In this document: positions 3,661 through 50,848 of the stretch, piece by piece
How the letters are laid out: each line of letters begins with the position of its first letter
How positions within the stretch are numbered: the stretch's first letter is position 1
Assembly (NCBI GenBank): GCA_027488965.1
Contig: JAIYAO010000131.1
Coordinates: 1 to 64,000 of the forward strand
Direction of reading: 5' to 3'
DNA: 64,000 nucleotides
Source: Alphaproteobacteria bacterium
GTDB lineage: Bacteria > Pseudomonadota > Alphaproteobacteria > Caulobacterales > Aquidulcibacteraceae
Translations under genes and position numbers: made by a program
The notes under the pieces: generated by a model
Told to the model about the DNA's origin: nothing
Seen by the model: the letters and a program-made list of their open reading frames with translations, nothing else
Databases searched by the model: none

Positions 3661-3670
3661 CAAACGCGGA

Positions 3671-3700
3671 AAGGGCGGTGCGCAAGCGCCGCCCTTTTTT
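3671..3700 (+). terminator. Rho-independent terminator of groESL
   Basis: GGGCGGTGCGCAAGCGCCGCCC stem-loop followed by TTTTTT. Confidence 0.85.
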
Positions 3701-3789: not shown

Positions 3790-4290
3790 ATGTTCGGGCT
3801 GAACAAGCAGACATTCTTTTTCTTCGGGTCTCGCGGCCATCCTGACCCCGATCCGACGGGCCAGAACAAGGCGTGGGCTGTGCTGGCGCTTCTCTATGCC
3901 GCCGCAAGGTCCGACGCAGCGACGGACAGCGACATGCGGGCTGAAGAGGAAGTCACGATCGACTCGCTGACGATCCGCACGCACACGCTCTTTGGCATCT
4001 CCCAGGAGACGGTCAGCGCGTTCATGGGCGAGTATCGGGAGATCCTGAGGGGGCGGAACTCCGTGAGCCCATTGATCGAGGCCGCCTGTACGCGTTTGCC
4101 GCGCGAGGAGGGCTTGGCCGAGGCCATTTTTGCGCAATGCGCCGACGTCGTCATGGCGGACCGCGAGGTCGTCGGCATCGAGGACGAGTTTTTGCGCGAA
4201 CTGGCCGACGAGTTGCGCCTGTCTCCGGGGCGACGCCGCGACATCGTCGAGGTCATGCTTTGGAAGAACGAAATGAAGGCAAGCGCCTGA
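3790..4290 (+). CDS. TerB-like fold protein (166 aa)
   Basis: C-terminal AQCADVVMADREVVGIEDEFLRELADELRLSPGRRRDIVEVMLWKN resembles TerB-type acidic helical repeats; similar to the next two genes. Confidence 0.65.
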   Translation: MFGLNKQTFFFFGSRGHPDPDPTGQNKAWAVLALLYAAARSDAATDSDMRAEEEVTIDSLTIRTHTLFGISQETVSAFMGEYREILRGRNSVSPLIEAACTRLPREEGLAEAIFAQCADVVMADREVVGIEDEFLRELADELRLSPGRRRDIVEVMLWKNEMKASA

Positions 4291-4721
4291 TGGCCCGCCG
4301 CGCCCTTGTCCCGCGCTGGTCGCCTGCGCAATGCCAGTTCACGTTCATCGCGATCACCGCACTGATCGACCGCAAGCTGACGGCGGAGGAGGAGTTCGAG
4401 GCGCTTGCGCTGGGGGCGCGCGGTCAGACGATGCAGGAACTCGACCTGCCGACCATGCAGGGCTGGCTGCGAGACGTGATCGCCGAGCGCACCGATGAAG
4501 CGGCGCTTTGGCGGCGGGCGCGCAAGGCGGCGGCCGACTTTCCGCAGGACCTTGCGATGCGACGCGCGATCTATGCGCACTGCGCCGACATTGCCCATGC
4601 TGACCGCACGGTGAAACGGCGCGAGCTTCGCGTTCTCAAATTCATTGCGCGTGAATTGCGGCTGCCGGGCGAGGATCGCAGGAAGATCGACTTGGTCATG
4701 GACCTGAAGAACCGCCACTAG
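4290..4721 (+). CDS. TerB-like fold protein, paralog of the C-terminus of the next gene
   Basis: MARRALVPRWSPAQCQFTFIAITALIDRKL...YAHCADIAHADRTVKRRELRVLKFIARELRL...DLKNRH; ATG overlaps the upstream TGA (TGATG). Confidence 0.7.
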   Translation: MARRALVPRWSPAQCQFTFIAITALIDRKLTAEEEFEALALGARGQTMQELDLPTMQGWLRDVIAERTDEAALWRRARKAAADFPQDLAMRRAIYAHCADIAHADRTVKRRELRVLKFIARELRLPGEDRRKIDLVMDLKNRH

Positions 4722-4729
4722 GAGGGTGC

Positions 4730-6427
4730 GTGTCAGTTCAGGCATCGCCATGGCCGTACCTGCTGGGCCTGCTCGCGCTGTTTCTGGGTTCCGCAAGCAT
4801 TGCGCTGGGCGCGGGTGTATCGCTGCCGGGGCTTCAGGGTTTCGACTGGACCAGCGATGCCGTCGCCGGGCGCGACGTTATCAACTGGCTCGCCCAGCTT
4901 TCGGGGGGCGGGATCGATACTATCCCGGTCGGCATCCTGTTCGTCCTGCCCGTCTTTGCCGCCCGCTTCCTTATGGTTCAGGGCAGGAAGCTGACCCCCG
5001 AGCAGGCGTGGGAGGAGCGGCACGGAGCCAACCTCCTGTCACGGAGCGTCACTCGCCTGGTCCAGGCCGTTGGTCTCGTCGTCATCGTCGCGCTCCTGCT
5101 AGGGACGCCGCTTATTCTTTATCTTAAATCCTTTGTCCTGCCAGCAGGTGCTGTCGACGACAGCTTCCTGCAAGATAGCCTTGTGGCCATCGTCGTCGCC
5201 TCGGTGCTCTATCTCCTTCTGGCCCTTGTGATCGAGGCGCTGACATCCGCGGATGGCGCCATGGTCATCACGTTCTGCGGCGCAGCTGCGACGTTCGGCC
5301 GGGCCGTGACGTCTGCGACGGGGATGACATTCCTGCCTGTTGGCGACATGGCGCCCGAGGCGGCGCGCGCCATGTCGTTAAGCGCCCTTGCCCTTCCGGC
5401 CGTGATCTTCGTTCTGATGGCGCGACGCCCCTTCGTTGTGATGAGGACCCGCTCTCTCGCTCGGAGCACAAAATCGATCCCGGCTGGGACGGGGGAGACG
5501 GAGCTGCCTTTCCCGCTCATTCCAACCAATACTCTGCGGGTCGCGGTCGGGCTGCTGCTCTGGGTTGTCACTGCTGTTGCAGTGACGATGGCCATCGCAA
5601 ATCACACGAGCATCGACATCCCGCATGCGTTCGATTGGTTTGCATTTCCGCTCCAGCCAATCGTCATCGCGCTCACACTTTACGTCCTCGCGACCGGTCG
5701 GCTGAAAGAGGAAATGGAGGCTTTTGCCGACAGGCTGCGGCGCGAAGGTACCTATCTCCCCGACTGCTTGCCGGGTGCGGAAACAGCCAAGCGTCTTGTT
5801 GTTGAGTTCCGCTGGATGCTCATGCGCGCCGCCCTCACCGCGGGAGCAATCTCTGCGGTCGTCACGGCAGCTTACTGGGCCAGCGGCGCTTCGGCGCTGG
5901 AGAGCCTTCAAGGACTTGCCTGGCTATGGACCTTGGGCGTTTCGGGCTATGCCTTGATGCTACCGCTCCAGGCTCGTGTGGCTGGCGCCTCGGTCCTGTC
6001 GAGGCCCTTGCCGCGTCTGCGTTGGTCGCCTGCGCGCGCCCACTTCACTATCCTGTGTGTGGCTGCAGCCATCGACCGGGATGTTGCCCACGAAGAGCGG
6101 TTCGAATCGCTCGCGCTGGGGCGGCGGACGCGCGCGCTGCATGAAGTTGATCGTCAATCGCTTTACCGTTGGCTGTCGGAAGTCGAGGCGAAACAGGGCG
6201 ATCGCCGCGAACTCATCGACCTTGCGACACGCGCGATCGAGGACTACCCCGCCGATCCCAACATGCGTCGCGCCATTTACACGCAATGCGCAGACATCGC
6301 GCATGCCGACCGCAAGTTGAAAGGCATGGAGACATGGTTCCTCAAGTATCTGGCCACCGGACTTGGACTGGCAAGGAGTGAGCGGGCGCGGATCGACGGC
6401 GTCGTTGGCGCCAAGAACCGTCACTGA
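4730..6427 (+). CDS. Polytopic membrane protein with C-terminal TerB-like domain
   Basis: GTG start after AGGAGGG; several TM segments; last ~140 aa (WSPARAHFTILCVAAAIDRD...YTQCADIAHADRKLKGMETWFLKYLATGLGL...AKNRH) align with the upstream gene. Confidence 0.7.
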   Translation: MSVQASPWPYLLGLLALFLGSASIALGAGVSLPGLQGFDWTSDAVAGRDVINWLAQLSGGGIDTIPVGILFVLPVFAARFLMVQGRKLTPEQAWEERHGANLLSRSVTRLVQAVGLVVIVALLLGTPLILYLKSFVLPAGAVDDSFLQDSLVAIVVASVLYLLLALVIEALTSADGAMVITFCGAAATFGRAVTSATGMTFLPVGDMAPEAARAMSLSALALPAVIFVLMARRPFVVMRTRSLARSTKSIPAGTGETELPFPLIPTNTLRVAVGLLLWVVTAVAVTMAIANHTSIDIPHAFDWFAFPLQPIVIALTLYVLATGRLKEEMEAFADRLRREGTYLPDCLPGAETAKRLVVEFRWMLMRAALTAGAISAVVTAAYWASGASALESLQGLAWLWTLGVSGYALMLPLQARVAGASVLSRPLPRLRWSPARAHFTILCVAAAIDRDVAHEERFESLALGRRTRALHEVDRQSLYRWLSEVEAKQGDRRELIDLATRAIEDYPADPNMRRAIYTQCADIAHADRKLKGMETWFLKYLATGLGLARSERARIDGVVGAKNRH

Positions 6428-30176: not shown

Positions 30177-30805
30177 AGCGTCTTGCAGGTCTTGCCGCGA
30201 TCGCCGCGCTGGCGCTCGGCGGCTGCGTGTCGCTGTTGCCGAAGCCGCCGCCGCCGCCGGCCATCTACAGCCTCCGCGCCGGTGCGGTGGAGCGGATGGC
30301 CGGGCCGCCGAAGGATCTGGTGATCGGCGTGACGGCGCCGGAGGCGCCGCGCTCGGTGGCGGGCGCCGACATCGTGTGGCGCACCGGCCCGCAGATCGCA
30401 TTCATGGAGCGCGCGGCGTGGGACGGTTCGGCCCCGGAGCTGCTGCAGGACATGCTGGTCGACACCATGGATCGCCGCGGCGGCGTGCGCGCCGTCACGC
30501 GGGCGGGCGGGGGCGTGCGCTCCGACGCCAATCTCACGTGGGATGTGCTGACGTTCGAGGTGCTGGAGGCGGATGGCAAGCTGGAAGCGCGCATCGAAGT
30601 GGTGGCCCGCCTCATCGACCTGCGCACGCGCGCGATCACCGTCGTGCAGCGCTTCAACGCAAACGCCCCGATCTCGGCGAGATCGGGGCGGGCTGCGGCC
30701 GCAGCGTTGGAGCGCGCCGCAGGCGCAGCAACCTTGCAGATCGCCGACTGGGCGATCGCGCAGGCGGAAGCGCCTCAGCCGAGTGCGGCGTCCACCAGCA
30801 GGTAG
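30173..30805 (+). CDS. ABC-type transport auxiliary lipoprotein (PqiC/LptE-like family)
   Basis: Lipobox ALGGC; follows mlaEFD; LVIGVTAPEAPRSVAGADIVWRTGPQIAFMERAAWDGSAPELLQDMLV. Confidence 0.85.
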   Translation: MKRLAGLAAIAALALGGCVSLLPKPPPPPAIYSLRAGAVERMAGPPKDLVIGVTAPEAPRSVAGADIVWRTGPQIAFMERAAWDGSAPELLQDMLVDTMDRRGGVRAVTRAGGGVRSDANLTWDVLTFEVLEADGKLEARIEVVARLIDLRTRAITVVQRFNANAPISARSGRAAAAALERAAGAATLQIADWAIAQAEAPQPSAASTSR

Positions 30806-32547
30806 GCGATCAGCACTGTCTTGCCGCCCGGCTGGGTGGCGAGGTCGGGCTTGGCGCGGAACGCGACGGCCTCATTGCGGGCATGCACATTGTGCTCGAA
30901 CAGGCGCTGCAGGCGGGCGACTGCGTCCGGCGCGGCGGCCGTCACGGCCTGGCGGCGCGAGGCGCCGCCCTGGCGGGCGCGGCTGGCGATGAAGTCGAGG
31001 TCGGCGGTGGCGAACACATCGCCGGCGCGCACGCCCACCTGCATCAGCATCTCGATGGCCTTTTCCGCCTGGCTCTTCTCGACCAGGTTGAACCGCTCTG
31101 CGGGGCCGGCGTCGTTGGCCGAGGCCGGCACAGCCCAGTTCTGGGTGTAGTCCGTGTTGGCGAAGCGCGGGGCTTCCACGGTCTCGGCGACGACCGCAGC
31201 GTAGGCGGGACGGCCGCCGGCGCTGGCGTACATCTTCTCCACCACGTGCTGGCTTTCGGCCACGGCTGCGGGCGCAGGTTCCGCCATGACGGGCTTTTGC
31301 GCGACCTGGGCGGCCCCTGCCATCGCCGAGAGGCGACGCTGGATCGAGGCGGCGTGACGGTCGGCGGCGGCCTGCGCCTCTTCGGAAGCGCGGCGCGCTT
31401 CGTCGGCGGCGTCCTTCAGCTTCGCCAGCGTGGAAACGGCGCTGTCCTCCATCGCCTGCGTTTCGCTGCGGATCATCTGTGCGACGCGGCGTGCGTCGGC
31501 GACGGCGCGCTGCGTCGTCTCACGAACAGCGCTTGCAGTGGCGTTGGCGGCCTGGGTGGCGTTCTCGGCGGACTGGCGGGCGGTATCGGTGAGCGTCGTC
31601 GCCTGGGTGAGGGCCTCCAGCGCCGACACGATCGTGCCGTCGAGGCGTTGGGCTGCGAGCTGCGTGGCGGTGGCGGCTCCGTCCATGGCTTCGGTGCGCT
31701 CGGCCATCAGGGCGGCGGAGGCGGCGAAGTTCGTGAGGTGCGACTGGAAGGTCTCGTCGGCGGCCACGTACTCCTGGCGCACGAGGCGGGAGGCCTCCCG
31801 CATGAGGCGGATCTGGCGGCCCACGTTCTCGCCCAGCACATCGGACTGCTGACGCAGTTCGGTGGTGAGATCCTCGAACGCAATCCGTTCGCTCTGCAGC
31901 GTGGCCGACAGCGTGCCCGCGCCGTCCTTGGCGCTGGCGACAGCCTGGTCGAACACCACCGCGTTGCGCGCGGCGGCGGCCTCCAGTTCGGCGAAGCGGT
32001 CGAGCGCCACTTCGACGACGGACTGCAGCGCGCCGATTTCGGCGCGGACGGTTTCGCCCAGCGAGCGGGCGCGGTCTTCCACGGCGTCGGCGGGCGCCAG
32101 AGCCTGGGTGGCGAGCTTCGCCAGCTGCGCAGTCTCGCGCCGCACGCGGTTGGCCTCGCGCGCCGCGGCGGCGGTGAAGAGGATGAGCAGTGCAGGCGCC
32201 AGCGCCACCGCCACAATGCCCACGAGTACCGCCGGGTGCTGGTACTGGAGGGCGTCGCGGCCGATGAATGCGAGCGGCGCGCCGAGCGCTGCGCCAATCC
32301 ACGCGAGCGCGCCCGTCACGCCCCAGAACCCCGCGCCCGCAGGGGCGGGGGTGTCTTCAACGGGATCCGACGCAAGCGCCTCGATCTCCGCGAAGGGGAT
32401 CATGGTTTCTTCGGCGCCGACGGAGGCCGCTTCCGGCGGGTCTTCCGCGGTCACGGCCGCGGCTTCCGCCAGGTCGCCTTCGCGCAGGGCGGCCTCAAGG
32501 TGGGCGAACTCTTCGTCGAGAGTTCCCGGTTTGACATCGTCGTGCAT
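30775..32547 (-). CDS. Membrane-anchored coiled-coil protein, TipN-like (tentative), copy 2
   Basis: Two N-terminal TM segments, long Ala/Glu-rich coiled coil, C-terminal module VGVRAGDVFATADLDFIASRARQGGASRRQAV...LLVDAALG shared with the neighbour. Confidence 0.6.
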   Translation of the reverse strand: MHDDVKPGTLDEEFAHLEAALREGDLAEAAAVTAEDPPEAASVGAEETMIPFAEIEALASDPVEDTPAPAGAGFWGVTGALAWIGAALGAPLAFIGRDALQYQHPAVLVGIVAVALAPALLILFTAAAAREANRVRRETAQLAKLATQALAPADAVEDRARSLGETVRAEIGALQSVVEVALDRFAELEAAAARNAVVFDQAVASAKDGAGTLSATLQSERIAFEDLTTELRQQSDVLGENVGRQIRLMREASRLVRQEYVAADETFQSHLTNFAASAALMAERTEAMDGAATATQLAAQRLDGTIVSALEALTQATTLTDTARQSAENATQAANATASAVRETTQRAVADARRVAQMIRSETQAMEDSAVSTLAKLKDAADEARRASEEAQAAADRHAASIQRRLSAMAGAAQVAQKPVMAEPAPAAVAESQHVVEKMYASAGGRPAYAAVVAETVEAPRFANTDYTQNWAVPASANDAGPAERFNLVEKSQAEKAIEMLMQVGVRAGDVFATADLDFIASRARQGGASRRQAVTAAAPDAVARLQRLFEHNVHARNEAVAFRAKPDLATQPGGKTVLIAYLLVDAALG

Positions 32548-32637
32548 GATCGATCGCTCCAAGATCGGCCTGCGCCGTCGCGGTGTGCAACGGGGGGAGG
32601 GCTCGCGGATCAGGGGAAGCAATTCGGGCGCCAGACG

Positions 32638-32667
32638 AAAAACGCGCCGTGGTTCCCCACGGCGCGT
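32638..32667 (-). terminator. Rho-independent terminator of the 689-aa coiled-coil gene
   Basis: Minus-strand ACGCGCCGTGG-GGAA-CCACGGCGCGT (perfect 11-bp stem) followed by TTTT. Confidence 0.8.
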
Positions 32668-32692
32668 CAATCATGTCCCCCGTGAGGGGCGC

Positions 32693-34762
32693 CTAGCTTG
32701 AGGCGGCGTCGATCAGGAGGAAGGCCCGGGTCTGGTCGGCGCTCATGGAGGCCCGGCCGCGGCCGAGCAGGTCGGCGATGCGGGCGCCTTCGGCTTCGAG
32801 GAAGCGGGCGGCTTCCTCGCGGGCGCGGGGGTCCGTATCGAACCGTTCGGCCAGCCGCAGCACCGCCTCGGGGGCCGCGTCGCGGACCGCGCGGCGCCGC
32901 GCCTGGGTGCCGTTGCGGGCGCGGGCCCCGATCCGGTCCAGCGCCGCCGTGGAGAACACCTCCGGCAGGCGCACCCCGATGGTCTCCATCATCTGGGCGG
33001 TACGCCCGGGGGTCGGGGGCGGACGGTCAAACAGGGGGTCGGCGGGGCGCACGGCGCCGATGGCGGCGGCCGGCGCGCTGTGGTGAAGGGAAAACGTCTG
33101 GGGCTGGGCGGCCCCCCGGGCCGAAACCGGCGCGGTCGCCGGCGCCGGCGGCTGCGCAAACGCGTGGGCGAAGCCGGGCATGGCGGGGGTCGCCGCAGCG
33201 GCGCTCATCGCCGGGGTCCGCGGGGGCTGCACGGGCGGAGGTTCCGGGGCACGGCGCACGGCCACAGGCGCCTCATACTCGTTGGGGGCGGCGGTCACGA
33301 GCGGCCGGCCGGCCGGCTCCCGCAACTGGCTGACGGCAGGCTCGGCGTCGACGCTGCGCAGCATGTCGCGCCAGCTCCAGCGGTCGGCGTTGCCCCGCTC
33401 GGCGTTGACCTTCTCTTCAAGCGTCGCCCGTCCGTCGGCGCGGGACTGGATGCGCGGGCCGATGCCGAACTGTTCGCCGAAGCCTGGGCGGCGCTGATCC
33501 GCCGGCAGGGCGGCGACCCGGGCCACCTGCTCCTCGAAGCGCTGGGCTTCCATCCGCTCCACGTCGCGACGGGCGGTTTCGGCCCGCGCCGCTTCCCGGG
33601 CTGCACGATCCTTGCCGCCCTGGATGAAGCTGAAGGTGCGGTTCTGGGCGGGTTTGCGGGAGGGCGGCGGCAGGGCGCCGGTCGCCTCGCGGGCGTCCAC
33701 GGCGGCGCCGCGGGCCGCTTCAGCCGCTTCGCGCAGGCGCTCCAGCGCCACGGCGGCTTCCCGCTCCACGGTCTGGGCCTCGGCGCGGATGAGTTCGGCC
33801 ACCCGGCGGGCATCGTCGATGGCGCGGTTGGTCGTCTCGCGCACCGCGCCGGCAGTGGTGTTGGCGGCCAGCGTCGCGGCCTCGGTGGATTTCTTGGCGG
33901 CCTCGGTGAGGCTGGTGGCCTGGGCCAGCGTGTCCAGTGCGCCCGACAGCGCGCCCTCCAGGCGCTGGGTGCTCTCGGCGGTGGAGGCGGCGGCCTGGGT
34001 CAGCAGGCCGGTGCGTTCGCCGATGGACTGGGCTGTGGCCCCGATCGCCTGCAGGCGGCCGTCCAGCACCTGGTCGACTGCACGCAGCTGCACTTCCGCT
34101 TCGCGGGCCGCCGCCGTGATCGAGTGGGACTGGCGTTGGATGGTCTCGCCCAGCCGCGCCACGTTGGTGTTGAGGTCGCCGGAGATCTGCATGAGCACCG
34201 CGCGCTCGCGCTCCAGACCGCTGATCATGGCGCCTGCGCCCTGTTGGGCGGTGGCGGCGGCCTGGTCGATGGCGGCCTTCTGGCGGGTGACGACAGTCTC
34301 CACCGCCGCGAGCTTGGCGAGGGCTTCCTCGAGGGACTTGTCGAGCGCCGCGATCTCCCCGCGCATGGAGATGCCAAGGCGGCGCGCCGCAGCCTCCGCT
34401 ACCGGGGACGGATTCATCATGCGGTCCGCCGCGTCGGCCAGCCGGCGCGCCTGCGCCTGCGCCCGTACGCCTTCACGCACTGCTGCGCCGGCAAAAAGCA
34501 GGAGGCCGGCGGGCAGGAGTGCGGTGAACGCCAGCGCCGCGCCCTGAATGAACGTCATGGCGCCCAGGGCGCCAAATCCCACGAGGGCCGCCGTCACGCA
34601 AAGCACCGCCGCCACCCAGGCCAGGGCCAGGAACGCGGCTGCGCGCGCCATCCAGCCGCCGGCCTGCGCCGTCTCCGCGGCGGGCTCCAGCGGGCGGTCC
34701 ATCACGGCGTGCTCGGCCGGGACCGGGGTGATGTCGTCGCGTTCCGGAATGATCCGCCCCAT
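32693..34762 (-). CDS. Membrane-anchored coiled-coil protein, TipN-like (tentative), copy 1
   Basis: Two N-terminal TM segments, coiled coil, Pro-rich linker, C-terminal IGVRLPEVFSTAALDRIGARARNGTQARRRAV...FLLIDAASS. Confidence 0.6.
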   Translation of the reverse strand: MGRIIPERDDITPVPAEHAVMDRPLEPAAETAQAGGWMARAAAFLALAWVAAVLCVTAALVGFGALGAMTFIQGAALAFTALLPAGLLLFAGAAVREGVRAQAQARRLADAADRMMNPSPVAEAAARRLGISMRGEIAALDKSLEEALAKLAAVETVVTRQKAAIDQAAATAQQGAGAMISGLERERAVLMQISGDLNTNVARLGETIQRQSHSITAAAREAEVQLRAVDQVLDGRLQAIGATAQSIGERTGLLTQAAASTAESTQRLEGALSGALDTLAQATSLTEAAKKSTEAATLAANTTAGAVRETTNRAIDDARRVAELIRAEAQTVEREAAVALERLREAAEAARGAAVDAREATGALPPPSRKPAQNRTFSFIQGGKDRAAREAARAETARRDVERMEAQRFEEQVARVAALPADQRRPGFGEQFGIGPRIQSRADGRATLEEKVNAERGNADRWSWRDMLRSVDAEPAVSQLREPAGRPLVTAAPNEYEAPVAVRRAPEPPPVQPPRTPAMSAAAATPAMPGFAHAFAQPPAPATAPVSARGAAQPQTFSLHHSAPAAAIGAVRPADPLFDRPPPTPGRTAQMMETIGVRLPEVFSTAALDRIGARARNGTQARRRAVRDAAPEAVLRLAERFDTDPRAREEAARFLEAEGARIADLLGRGRASMSADQTRAFLLIDAASS

Positions 34763-34969
34763 CGCGCTGTCTTTCCCGTGGCGTCCGCCGGAGTCACCCG
34801 GCCATACGACCCGCAGGGGTCGCGCAGGGACGCGCGTAACGGAAACCCGGAAATCGTGTCAGGACAAGGGCGCCAACGCCCTCGCGCGCTTTCCTCGCCC
34901 CTCGATTGCGCAGAATACGCCAGAGGCGAACAACAAACCGTAAGCGTGCCGAAACTTCAGGCGGACGGC

Positions 34970-35185
34970 TCAGCCGTTGGGGCACGCGCCAGGCGATTGC
35001 AGCTCCATCCCGAAGCCGGCCACATTGAAACTCGGCGCCCGGGCGCTCGAACACATGGCGGGGGCGCTGTCTGCGCCCTTCACGGGGCAGGCCGCTTCCT
35101 CGGCGGCCGGGACGATGGTCACCCCGATCCAACCCAGCGCCAAGGCAATCACCAGGTCGCGTATCAGAACCACGACGCGGATCAT
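34970..35185 (-). CDS. Small hypothetical membrane/exported protein (71 aa)
   Basis: MIRVVVLIRDLVIALALGWIGVTIVPAAEEAACPVKG... with N-terminal hydrophobic segment. Confidence 0.5.
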   Translation of the reverse strand: MIRVVVLIRDLVIALALGWIGVTIVPAAEEAACPVKGADSAPAMCSSARAPSFNVAGFGMELQSPGACPNG

Positions 35186-35347
35186 CTGCGACTCCCTCGC
35201 TCCCACAACCAAGCTTTTGCGCCCAACGCGTCCTGCGGGCAAGTCCTTGTCTCGCCCGGCCCGCCTGAATTCCGCGCCGGTGTGGCGACAGGGTTGACGG
35301 AGTACGCCTGATGGGGGAAGGTGCAAGCGTTACATTATAACGGATCA

Positions 35348-47241: not shown

Positions 47242-48030
47242 CTACGCCGCCTCTGCGGTGGAGTTGAAGAACAGCGCTTGGCTGACGGCGGCGCGCACGG
47301 TGTCTTCCGCATACGGCTTGGTGATGAGGAAGGTGGGTTCCGGGCGCTCGCCGGTGAGCAGGCGATCGGGGAACGCGGTGATGAAGATCACCGGCACTGT
47401 GATCTGCGACAGGATGTCGTGAACGGCGTCGACGCCGGAGGAGCCGTCGGCCAGCTGGATATCAGCGAGGACGAGATCGGGCTGGTGCGCCTTCGCCGCC
47501 GCCACCGCGCGGCTGGCGGTGTCCGCCGTGGCGACCACCGTATGGCCGAGGTTGGTGACGATGTCGCTCAGGTCCATGGCGATCAGCGTTTCGTCCTCGA
47601 TGATGAGGACGCGGGCCCGCGTCTGGGCCGCGATTTCCGCGCGCGCATCGGCCACCAGGTCGGCGACCTTGTCGGGACCGGCGCCGAAGATCTGGCCCGC
47701 CTCGGTGAGGGAGAAGCCTTCCACCGCCGTCAGCAGCAGCGCCTGGCGGCTCATGGGCGTCAGATGCTGCAGCCGTTCGTGCGCGCGCGCGGCGGCCCCA
47801 ACGTCCTGCGCCGGCGGAGCTTCCACGTTGCCGGTGGACCAGATGGTGTGGAAGAGCTTGTAGAGCGCCACGCGGGGCGCGACCTCGGGATCGAGCGCCT
47901 CGCGCGATTCAAGGATCGCCCTGAGGGAGGCCGCTACGAAAGCGTCGCCGCTCTTTTGTGAACCTGTGAGCGCCCTGGCGTAACGGCGCAGCAGGGGAAG
48001 GTGGGGCGCAATCATCTGCGAAGAAGTCAT
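47242..48030 (-). CDS. phyR: General stress response regulator PhyR
   Basis: N-terminal sigma-like domain fused to receiver RVLIIEDETLIAMDLSDIVTNLGHTV...VLADIQLADGSSGVDAV; divergent from nepR-ecfG. Confidence 0.95.
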   Translation of the reverse strand: MTSSQMIAPHLPLLRRYARALTGSQKSGDAFVAASLRAILESREALDPEVAPRVALYKLFHTIWSTGNVEAPPAQDVGAAARAHERLQHLTPMSRQALLLTAVEGFSLTEAGQIFGAGPDKVADLVADARAEIAAQTRARVLIIEDETLIAMDLSDIVTNLGHTVVATADTASRAVAAAKAHQPDLVLADIQLADGSSGVDAVHDILSQITVPVIFITAFPDRLLTGERPEPTFLITKPYAEDTVRAAVSQALFFNSTAEAA

Positions 48031-48166
48031 GTGGGCTCCGGCCTCTGGTCTCTTCCTGGTTGGTACTGCAATGCTGTCGCCCCCCGCCTGTCGCGTCGTT
48101 GCGGCCTGGAACATCGGACCGGTCCGGTGCGTTCAAAAGCAGTCGGAAAAGCGTTCTGAGGGTACA

Positions 48167-48191
48167 AACCCCGCATCCGCCCAATGGTTCC
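48167..48191 (-). promoter_or_regulatory. Candidate EcfG-type promoter for phyR (GGAAC-N16-GGTT)
   Basis: Minus strand GGAAC (48187-48191), N16, GGTT (48167-48170); -10 differs from CGTT at one position. Confidence 0.55.
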
Positions 48192-48199
48192 CGGCCGTG

Positions 48200-48224
48200 G
48201 GAACCAACCGCCCCCCGACGCGTT
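48200..48224 (+). promoter_or_regulatory. EcfG-type promoter for nepR-ecfG (GGAAC-N16-CGTT)
   Basis: GGAAC-CAACCGCCCCCCGACG-CGTT. Confidence 0.85.
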
Positions 48225-48266
48225 ACCATCGCGAAACCCGATGCACCGAAAACAGAGGCGCATGAT

Positions 48267-48542
48267 ATGGGCATGATCAAGTCATCTGCCGGAAGCCACA
48301 ACATGGAACGTGACACACCACCCCGGTCCCAGCCCCCGAAGTCCGCGCCCGATGCGCCTGCGCCCCCCAAGCGCGCGCGGCTCCGGCAGGACTTCGCCTC
48401 CCAGAAGGACCTCCACGTGGATCCCATCACCCGGAACTTGCGCAAGGCGTTCGACGAGGTGGCCGCCGAGCCGCTTCCCGAGGAGTTTCTCGATCTGCTT
48501 CGCCAGATCGACGAATCTGCGGGAGGCGAGAATGAGCGCTGA
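48267..48542 (+). CDS. nepR: Anti-sigma factor NepR
   Basis: DPITRNLRKAFDEVAAEPLPEEFLDLLRQID; between phyR and ecfG. Confidence 0.93.
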   Translation: MGMIKSSAGSHNMERDTPPRSQPPKSAPDAPAPPKRARLRQDFASQKDLHVDPITRNLRKAFDEVAAEPLPEEFLDLLRQIDESAGGENER

Positions 48543-49131
48543 ACCCGTGTCCGTCGCCGCCAGGCCCATGCCCGCCCAGGGAGTCGCGGACGTCCGCGCC
48601 GGCTTCGTGGAGGCCGTGCCGCACCTTCGCCTGTTCGCCCGGTCGCTCACCCGAAACTTCGTGGAGGCCGACGATCTCGTGCAGGAGACGATGCTGAAGG
48701 CCTTGGCCAACATCGACCGGTTCGAGCCCGGCACGCGTCTGCGCCCATGGCTTTTCACCATCATGCGCAACACTTTCTATTCGGACCTGCGCAAGCGGCG
48801 TCGCGAGGTGCAGGACGTGGACGGCGAACACGCCGCGCGCCTCGTGCAGGCGCCGCGCCAGGACAGCAGCGTCGACTTCGAGGACTTCAAGCAGGCCTTC
48901 GCCCAGCTCCATAGCGATCACCGCGAAGTGCTGACGCTGATCGGCGCTTCGGGTTGCTCCTACGAGGAAGCCGCCAACATCTGCGGCTGCGCCGTGGGCA
49001 CGATCAAGAGTCGCGTCAACCGTGCGCGGCGGCGCCTGGAGGAGATCATGAACGGTGCGGCCGGCGGGGCCGGGGCCGATGCCGATCAAGAGACGCCCCC
49101 GTCGCAGGACGCCATCGCCGGCGCCTGGTGA
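48532..49131 (+). CDS. ecfG: ECF sigma factor EcfG
   Basis: VEADDLVQETMLKALANIDRFEPGTRLRPWLFTIMRNTFYSDLRKRRRE; starts 11 bp inside nepR. Confidence 0.95.
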   Translation: MSAEPVSVAARPMPAQGVADVRAGFVEAVPHLRLFARSLTRNFVEADDLVQETMLKALANIDRFEPGTRLRPWLFTIMRNTFYSDLRKRRREVQDVDGEHAARLVQAPRQDSSVDFEDFKQAFAQLHSDHREVLTLIGASGCSYEEAANICGCAVGTIKSRVNRARRRLEEIMNGAAGGAGADADQETPPSQDAIAGAW

Positions 49132-49135
49132 GTCC

Positions 49136-50848
49136 GTGACAGGTGTGGGGCCGCCACGCCCCTTCCTCGGCATGTTTTCCCTGCATTCACTGCGGGGACG
49201 GATGGCGCTGCTCCTCGGGGCGGCGCTTTTGCCGATGGGGCTCATGACTCTCAACGCCGGCCTGCGCGCGGCGACGCTCGCGGAGGCGGCTTCCCAGGGT
49301 GAGATCGCTGCGCACGTGCAGGAAAGCATGCTGCAGCGCGAACGCGATGTGGTGCGCTTGCGGACGGTCACGCGCACCATCGCTGCGAACTCCACGTTCG
49401 CGCGCGGCGGCGCTGCGCAGTGCAATTCCGTGATGAACACTCTCGGCAAGGAGTTCGCCGAGTTCGCCGTGGTGACGATCCTGGACCGGGGCTCGCGGAT
49501 CGTGTGCGCCTCGCGCCCTGACGCGGTCGGTCGCGTGGCCGCATCCGGCGGTCTGGTGGAGGCCGCAACGGCCAGTGGCGACGTGGCCATCGGTTTCGTG
49601 CCCGCGCCGCGGATCAGCGAGGAGCCGGTGCTTGCGGCCGTTGCGCCCATCGGCGCCGCGGGCAGCGCCGCGAGGCTCTTTGTCGGCGTCACCCGCACCA
49701 GCGCGCCGCTCCTTGCACGCGCTTCGGGCGTGGATTCGGTGTTCGCCGCGCTCACGGATTCGAACGGTCGGGTGCTCCAGGTCTCCGGTCTCGATGTGCA
49801 GGGAGAAGACTATCGCGCGCTGATCCGCACGCTGGCCGCGCAGTCCCTGCGCAGCCGCGATGCGCCGTTCCGCGTGGGCAACCTGTGGGCGGTGACGGCA
49901 GAGCTCGCTGACGCCGACATCTACCTCGTGGAGGGCTGGCGCCGCCCGCCGCTGACCGCGGGCAGCGTGGCGCGCACGGTGTGGGCGATCTCCGCGCCGG
50001 TGCTGGTCTGGCTCATCGCGGTGCTGGCCACATGGTTCGCGGTGGAAATCTACATCGCGCGCCCGCTTACCGCGCTGGAGCTTCTGGCGCGCGCCTACGC
50101 GCGCGGGGAAGACACCACGACGCCGGAGTCCTTCCGCAACGCGCCGGTGGAGATTTCCTCCCTGCGTCGCACGCTGGCGGCGATGGCCAAGACGCTGCGC
50201 GGGCGGGAACATCGCCTCGCGGAGGCGCTGCAGGAGGAGCGTGCGCTTCTGCGGGAGGTGAACCATCGCGTGAACAACAACCTGCAGCTCGTGGCCAGCC
50301 TGCTGTCCATCCAGTCGCGCGCGACCACGGTGGAGCAACAGGCCGTCGGCCTTGCCCGCGCACACGATCGCATCCAGCTGCTGGCGCTCGCGCACAACCA
50401 GATCTACGGGTCGGGGCAAGTGCACGATGTGCGGGTGGACGACCTGGCCGGAGAGATCGCCCGCGCGCTGACGGCGGCCCGCGGCGCGAACACGGGGCGC
50501 ATCGTGCTGAACCTCGACATGCAGCCGGCGCACGCGCCGGTCGATCATGCGGTGCCGCTGGCGTTCCTGATCGGCGAGAGCGTCTCGCAGGCGCTCGACA
50601 TGCTGGAGGGGGCGGAGCGGGCGACGCTGAACGTCGCGCTGCACTGCGAACCGAATGGGGACGTGACGTTCACCGTATCCTCCCCGGAGCACGGCCCGCG
50701 CAAGGTGCCGGCCTCGCCGGCCAAGCGCATCATCGAGGCGTTCGCGCGCCAGATCGGCGTCACCGTCGGCTACGATCCGCAGGATCCCCTCAGCGTGCGG
50801 CTGGTGATGAAGATGGCGTCGGCGGAGGTCGAAACGGCCCCTGCATGA
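49136..50848 (+). CDS. HisKA_2/HWE-type sensor histidine kinase (PhyK-like)
   Basis: TM-periplasmic-TM, HAMP, EVNHRVNNNLQLVASLLSIQSR H-box; next to ecfG. Confidence 0.9.
   Translation: MTGVGPPRPFLGMFSLHSLRGRMALLLGAALLPMGLMTLNAGLRAATLAEAASQGEIAAHVQESMLQRERDVVRLRTVTRTIAANSTFARGGAAQCNSVMNTLGKEFAEFAVVTILDRGSRIVCASRPDAVGRVAASGGLVEAATASGDVAIGFVPAPRISEEPVLAAVAPIGAAGSAARLFVGVTRTSAPLLARASGVDSVFAALTDSNGRVLQVSGLDVQGEDYRALIRTLAAQSLRSRDAPFRVGNLWAVTAELADADIYLVEGWRRPPLTAGSVARTVWAISAPVLVWLIAVLATWFAVEIYIARPLTALELLARAYARGEDTTTPESFRNAPVEISSLRRTLAAMAKTLRGREHRLAEALQEERALLREVNHRVNNNLQLVASLLSIQSRATTVEQQAVGLARAHDRIQLLALAHNQIYGSGQVHDVRVDDLAGEIARALTAARGANTGRIVLNLDMQPAHAPVDHAVPLAFLIGESVSQALDMLEGAERATLNVALHCEPNGDVTFTVSSPEHGPRKVPASPAKRIIEAFARQIGVTVGYDPQDPLSVRLVMKMASAEVETAPA

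Follow-up and report, generated by a model that had tools for sequence, protein, structure and literature searches.

Next to groEL of one alphaproteobacterium, we identified a three-gene unit (positions 3790–6427) in which every gene carries a TerB stress-response domain and the third additionally encodes a polytopic membrane part. Sequence comparisons identify this membrane part as a divergent SecY homologue, and the resulting SecY-TerB fusion as a rare new architecture. Positions are those of the window, the whole stretch of 64,000 nt that was analyzed, and the three genes, their parts and the preceding groESL terminator are on the forward strand.

Gene arrangement of the TerB unit

The first gene (g1, 3790–4290) encodes a soluble TerB protein of 166 amino acids, the second (g2, 4290–4721) another of 143 amino acids, and the third (g3, 4730–6427; GTG start) the membrane protein of 565 amino acids. 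The stop codon of g1 and the ATG of g2 overlap in TGATG, and g2 and g3 are separated by 8 bp, with the ribosome-binding site AGGAGG at 4720–4725 preceding g3. These positions and the tight coupling are as a previous sequence-only reading had described them. The upstream border of the unit is the strong intrinsic terminator of groESL at 3669–3700 (13-bp stem, GCAA loop and T run; minimum free energy −24.5 kcal/mol, z = −3.96), which parts groESL from the three genes.

Downstream, a gene for a terminase large subunit (PF03237/PF17289; 6525–8270) lies between the TerB unit and nhaA; no other phage genes are adjacent, and two further copies are located on contigs C65 and C151 of the same genome. 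Elsewhere in the window, the region 30376–35311 contains long open reading frames (ORFs) overlapping on both strands, with zero Pfam matches at 1e-5. An ordinary alphaproteobacterial general stress cluster, consisting of a PhyR response regulator, a sigma-70-like factor and a HisKA_2 kinase (47245–50845), supports the class assignment.

Three related TerB domains

The Pfam profile PF05099 matched all three genes, in agreement with the earlier TerB assignment. The match to g3 (residues 438–555, 6041–6394; E = 2.8e-5) is just above the curated cut-off, those to g1 (E = 1.5e-4; 22.5 bits versus a cut-off of 24.4) and g2 (E = 2.8e-4) just under it. Searching the whole genome with this profile returned the same three sites and, on other contigs, three additional TerB loci. 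The g2 protein and the C-terminus of g3 share 46% identity and both end in KNRH, and in a tree of 19 TerB domains they are sisters with a support of 99/99, which bears out the paralogy noted in the sequence-only reading. The related domain seen in g1 shares 28% identity with the TerB domain of g3; in the tree, g1 forms a long branch of unsure placement. An AlphaFold model of the TerB domain, computed from a three-sequence alignment, is a seven-helix bundle (mean pLDDT 75). Its best matches in the PDB include the tellurite-resistance protein 2ou3 and PG1108 (2h5n), at TM-scores of ~0.5 and with poor E-values of 0.7–3. No family of the TerC/TerD type was found among the scanned ORFs of the window, as the sequence-only reading had noted for the usual ter partners.

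A different TerB operon recurs within the same taxonomic order and in the genome itself. An exported protein, of TPR type or similarly placed, is followed by a coiled-coil protein with a single transmembrane segment and a TerB protein (L047:874–3928 on contig C191 of the own genome, L050:5531–8744, L055, L057, L058 and L045). This resembles a conserved TerB system, perhaps one not yet described. In the own-genome copy, the large protein shows no Pfam match and no detected similarity to the others. In the relatives G110 and G246 (L044:3101–10030 and L045:7235–13312), two or three TerB genes are located among genes for TPR and membrane proteins.

The membrane part of g3 is related to SecY

The SecY-like domain of g3 spans approximately residues 25–393 (4802–5908). 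The SecY profile TIGR00967 matched residues 26–393 (E = 1.7e-7), collinear with profile positions 16–386 of 414. When g3 was compared with the PDB by phmmer, SecY chains were the sole significant matches (E = 3e-7; residues 151–365 on SecY 150–369). Genome searches with g3 matched SecY-sized ORFs of other bacteria across residues 24–375, and in two such loci (L038 and L120) the ORFs carry SecY sequence. Identity is 26% to an alphaproteobacterial SecY and ~21–26% in comparison with SecY/Sec61. The Pfam SecY family PF00344 did not match g3 significantly, which makes g3 a distant SecY relative.

Several controls address a chance or compositional likeness. With a hidden Markov model (HMM) built from 16 SecY proteins, g3 scored 14.5 bits in hmmsearch, compared with a maximum of 8.1 among 1000 local shuffles and −3.2 for the reversed sequence. 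With an HMM from 33 SecY proteins it scored 19.5 bits, whereas none of the unrelated polytopic proteins exceeded 0.1 bits. Using hhalign, residues 25–356 aligned to SecY 38–369 with P = 8e-4 (NhaA control, P = 0.59). Together, the local shuffles, the reversed sequence, the unrelated polytopic proteins and NhaA rule out such a likeness. Block shuffles retaining 40-residue pieces reached 13.1 bits, compared with 14.5 for g3, as expected if these pieces themselves hold SecY signal. Among 116 near-invariant SecY positions, g3 retains 35, compared with a mean of 7.7 and at most 18 among shuffles; because the latter were not realigned, the comparison is biased toward the observed value.

The sequence-only reading had described a membrane anchor belonging to the unit. 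The polytopic membrane part is indeed present, but this description understated it, given its homology to SecY. A SecY-like fold with a ten-helix core, and with the plug and lateral gate of such a channel, may be predicted for g3. A single-sequence AlphaFold model has a helix order compatible with SecY but carries no evidential weight at a pLDDT of 44, and a fold search with this model yielded zero matches.

SecY features kept and lost in g3

SecY is the channel that normally takes proteins across the membrane, nearly always encoded by one essential copy per genome. A separate, normal secY is present in the same genome, on contig C39. Nearly all of 385 genomes from this class had one TIGR00967 match; besides this genome, two matches occurred in only ~10, which may represent genes split between contigs.

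Recognizable in g3 are the segments GAGVSLPG following TM1, LSGG in the plug region, ETELPF ahead of TM7 and ADRLRREGTYLPDCLPGAETAKRL at the position of the C5 loop (5726–5797). The N-terminal amphipathic helix of SecY is missing, the C4 loop is shorter by ~8 residues, and the TM4-5 motif GEQIT.RG.GNG is degenerate. In the C5 loop, alignments place LPG at the site of the SecY motif RPG, with Leu347 (5768–5770) instead of the arginine. A role in coupling SecY with its motors has been assumed for this arginine. According to one report, it is conserved without exception across every domain of life (PMC4826270). The TerB domain follows the region aligned to TM10, at the place of the short SecY tail.

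One alternative is that g3 is a dedicated second translocon resembling SecY2, which still passes or inserts specific substrates, with the TerB proteins taking the place of SecA or of ribosome docking. The plug-like SGG segment, the retained C4 and C5 loop positions and the location of TerB at the SecY tail would suit such a channel. The lost arginine, the short C4 loop and the degenerate TM4-5 motif speak against it, and SecA2, SecE or an obvious substrate gene were not noted in the scanned neighborhood. We regard a second translocon as unlikely.

Distribution and origin of the unit

The SecY-TerB fusion was absent from all other genomes searched (~1,695 counted), and with the unit found in one genome only, there was no sign of a wider conserved system. 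Scans of genome contigs, which rely on short exact peptide patterns, found zero further fusions, and none was found in viral contigs, phages or plasmids, where SecY fragments in the viral contigs were too short to align. As these scans differ in sensitivity, the absence is not proof. A match in the viral contig L019 was dismissed as chance, comprising 41 residues of a short frame that lies opposite a more convincing ORF. In the literature searched, the combination of a SecY-like protein with a fused TerB domain and two free TerB proteins was not found; the sole paper naming both TerB and SecY is an Enterobacter isolate survey, unrelated by its title and abstract.

Contamination is unlikely because groEL is 94–96% identical to that of congeners and the flanks are syntenic. 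In two of these congeners (G001 and G002) the unit is missing from the same spot downstream of groEL. There, groEL is followed in G001 by a short 164-codon gene plus nhaA, and in G002 by a different membrane protein, in each case followed by the shared TonB receptor. The region 3.6–8.3 kb is thus an insertion, or the result of differential loss, at a variable spot. Codon usage in g3 is atypical, with a GC3 of 0.72 compared with 0.86 (SD 0.07) for the ORFs of the window and a codon adaptation of 0.47 compared with a mean of 0.71, in a comparison set that may include some false ORFs. This fits an acquisition of the unit. A phage or plasmid origin was rejected: the respective collections contained no full match to the unit and just one weak Hymenobacter TerB, and a search with the TerB alignment likewise returned none.

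The occurrence in a single genome and the low codon adaptation would also be expected of an orphan unit that evolves fast or decays without a selected function. Three intact, coupled genes, a g3 frame unbroken over 565 codons with a strong ribosome-binding site ahead of it, and two well-preserved TerB paralogues speak against this explanation, to which we give a low probability.

The acquired-looking unit at a variable spot could furthermore represent a defense or stress-triggered effector, in which TerB senses phage or envelope stress and the SecY-like channel opens or blocks the Sec route; terC has been tied to phage and metal resistance (PMC12054061). However, PADLOC returned nothing but a weak PDC-S48 match to g1 (E = 0.013), defense genes are absent nearby, and the phage and plasmid collections held no full match. 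An effector of this kind appears quite improbable.

A possible membrane-bound TerB assembly

Our preferred reading, plausible though still tentative, is that g3 is a SecY-family membrane protein which departed from the role in translocation driven by SecA or the ribosome. The degenerate SecY would be reused as a membrane platform or gated channel, with the usual translocation gone. Located in the inner membrane, g3 would bear its TerB domain at a cytosolic end and recruit the co-encoded soluble g1 and g2 proteins, giving a membrane-bound TerB assembly. This assembly would probably sense or act on inner-membrane, metal or translocon stress, and perhaps touch the Sec translocon or metal handling. 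The unit may be a membrane sensor or assembly system, as the sequence-only reading had proposed.

In Bacillus, TerC proteins co-immunoprecipitate with SecY and SecDF (PMC10550928), while PMC12054061 cites a complex of TerC with TerB. Since TerC co-purifies with SecY, and TerB with TerC, a SecY-TerB fusion is suggestive, as it would bring TerB to a Sec-type channel. This link passes via TerC, which was not seen in the locus; this counts against our preferred reading, as do the missing PF00344 match and the low-confidence single-sequence model of g3. Because no homologue of the same architecture was found, conservation cannot back a function of g3.

If correct, the joining of TerB to a second, degenerate SecY in one gene would hint at the secretion channel as the site where Ter proteins work, in agreement with the TerC-SecY contacts in Bacillus, at a time when the job of Ter proteins is still unclear. 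It would also exemplify the reuse of a universal channel fold. That a SecY-type channel was removed from general secretion and placed under TerB control, as a new class of TerB-gated channel or specialized translocon that would be genetic evidence for the Ter stress machinery acting at the Sec translocon, is a bolder and rather doubtful proposition.

Comparison with known systems

Compared with SecY/Sec61 (PF00344, TIGR00967), g3 is collinear over most of the chain with recognizable plug, C4 and C5 motifs, but differs in the lost arginine and N-terminal helix, the shortened C4 loop, the C-terminal TerB domain and its status as a second genome copy. Like the accessory SecY2 of Gram-positive bacteria (TIGR02920), it is a divergent extra SecY in a genome that also encodes the housekeeping copy. 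In contrast to SecY2, it is fused to TerB, no SecA2 gene was noted nearby, and TIGR02920 matched only weakly (E = 0.03; 13 bits versus a cut-off of 249.6). The unit has three domains of the TerB family (PF05099, COG3793), for which a seven-helix bundle is predicted, and one of them is here fused to a SecY-like domain. TerC, TerD and TerZ were not seen within the window, and the adjacent TerC and TerD-type partners of the canonical ter operon (TerZABCDE) are missing among its scanned ORFs. The association of TerC (MeeF/MeeY) with SecYEG likewise ties Ter proteins to the translocon; there it is a contact between TerC and the translocon, whereas here it is a TerB-SecY gene fusion.
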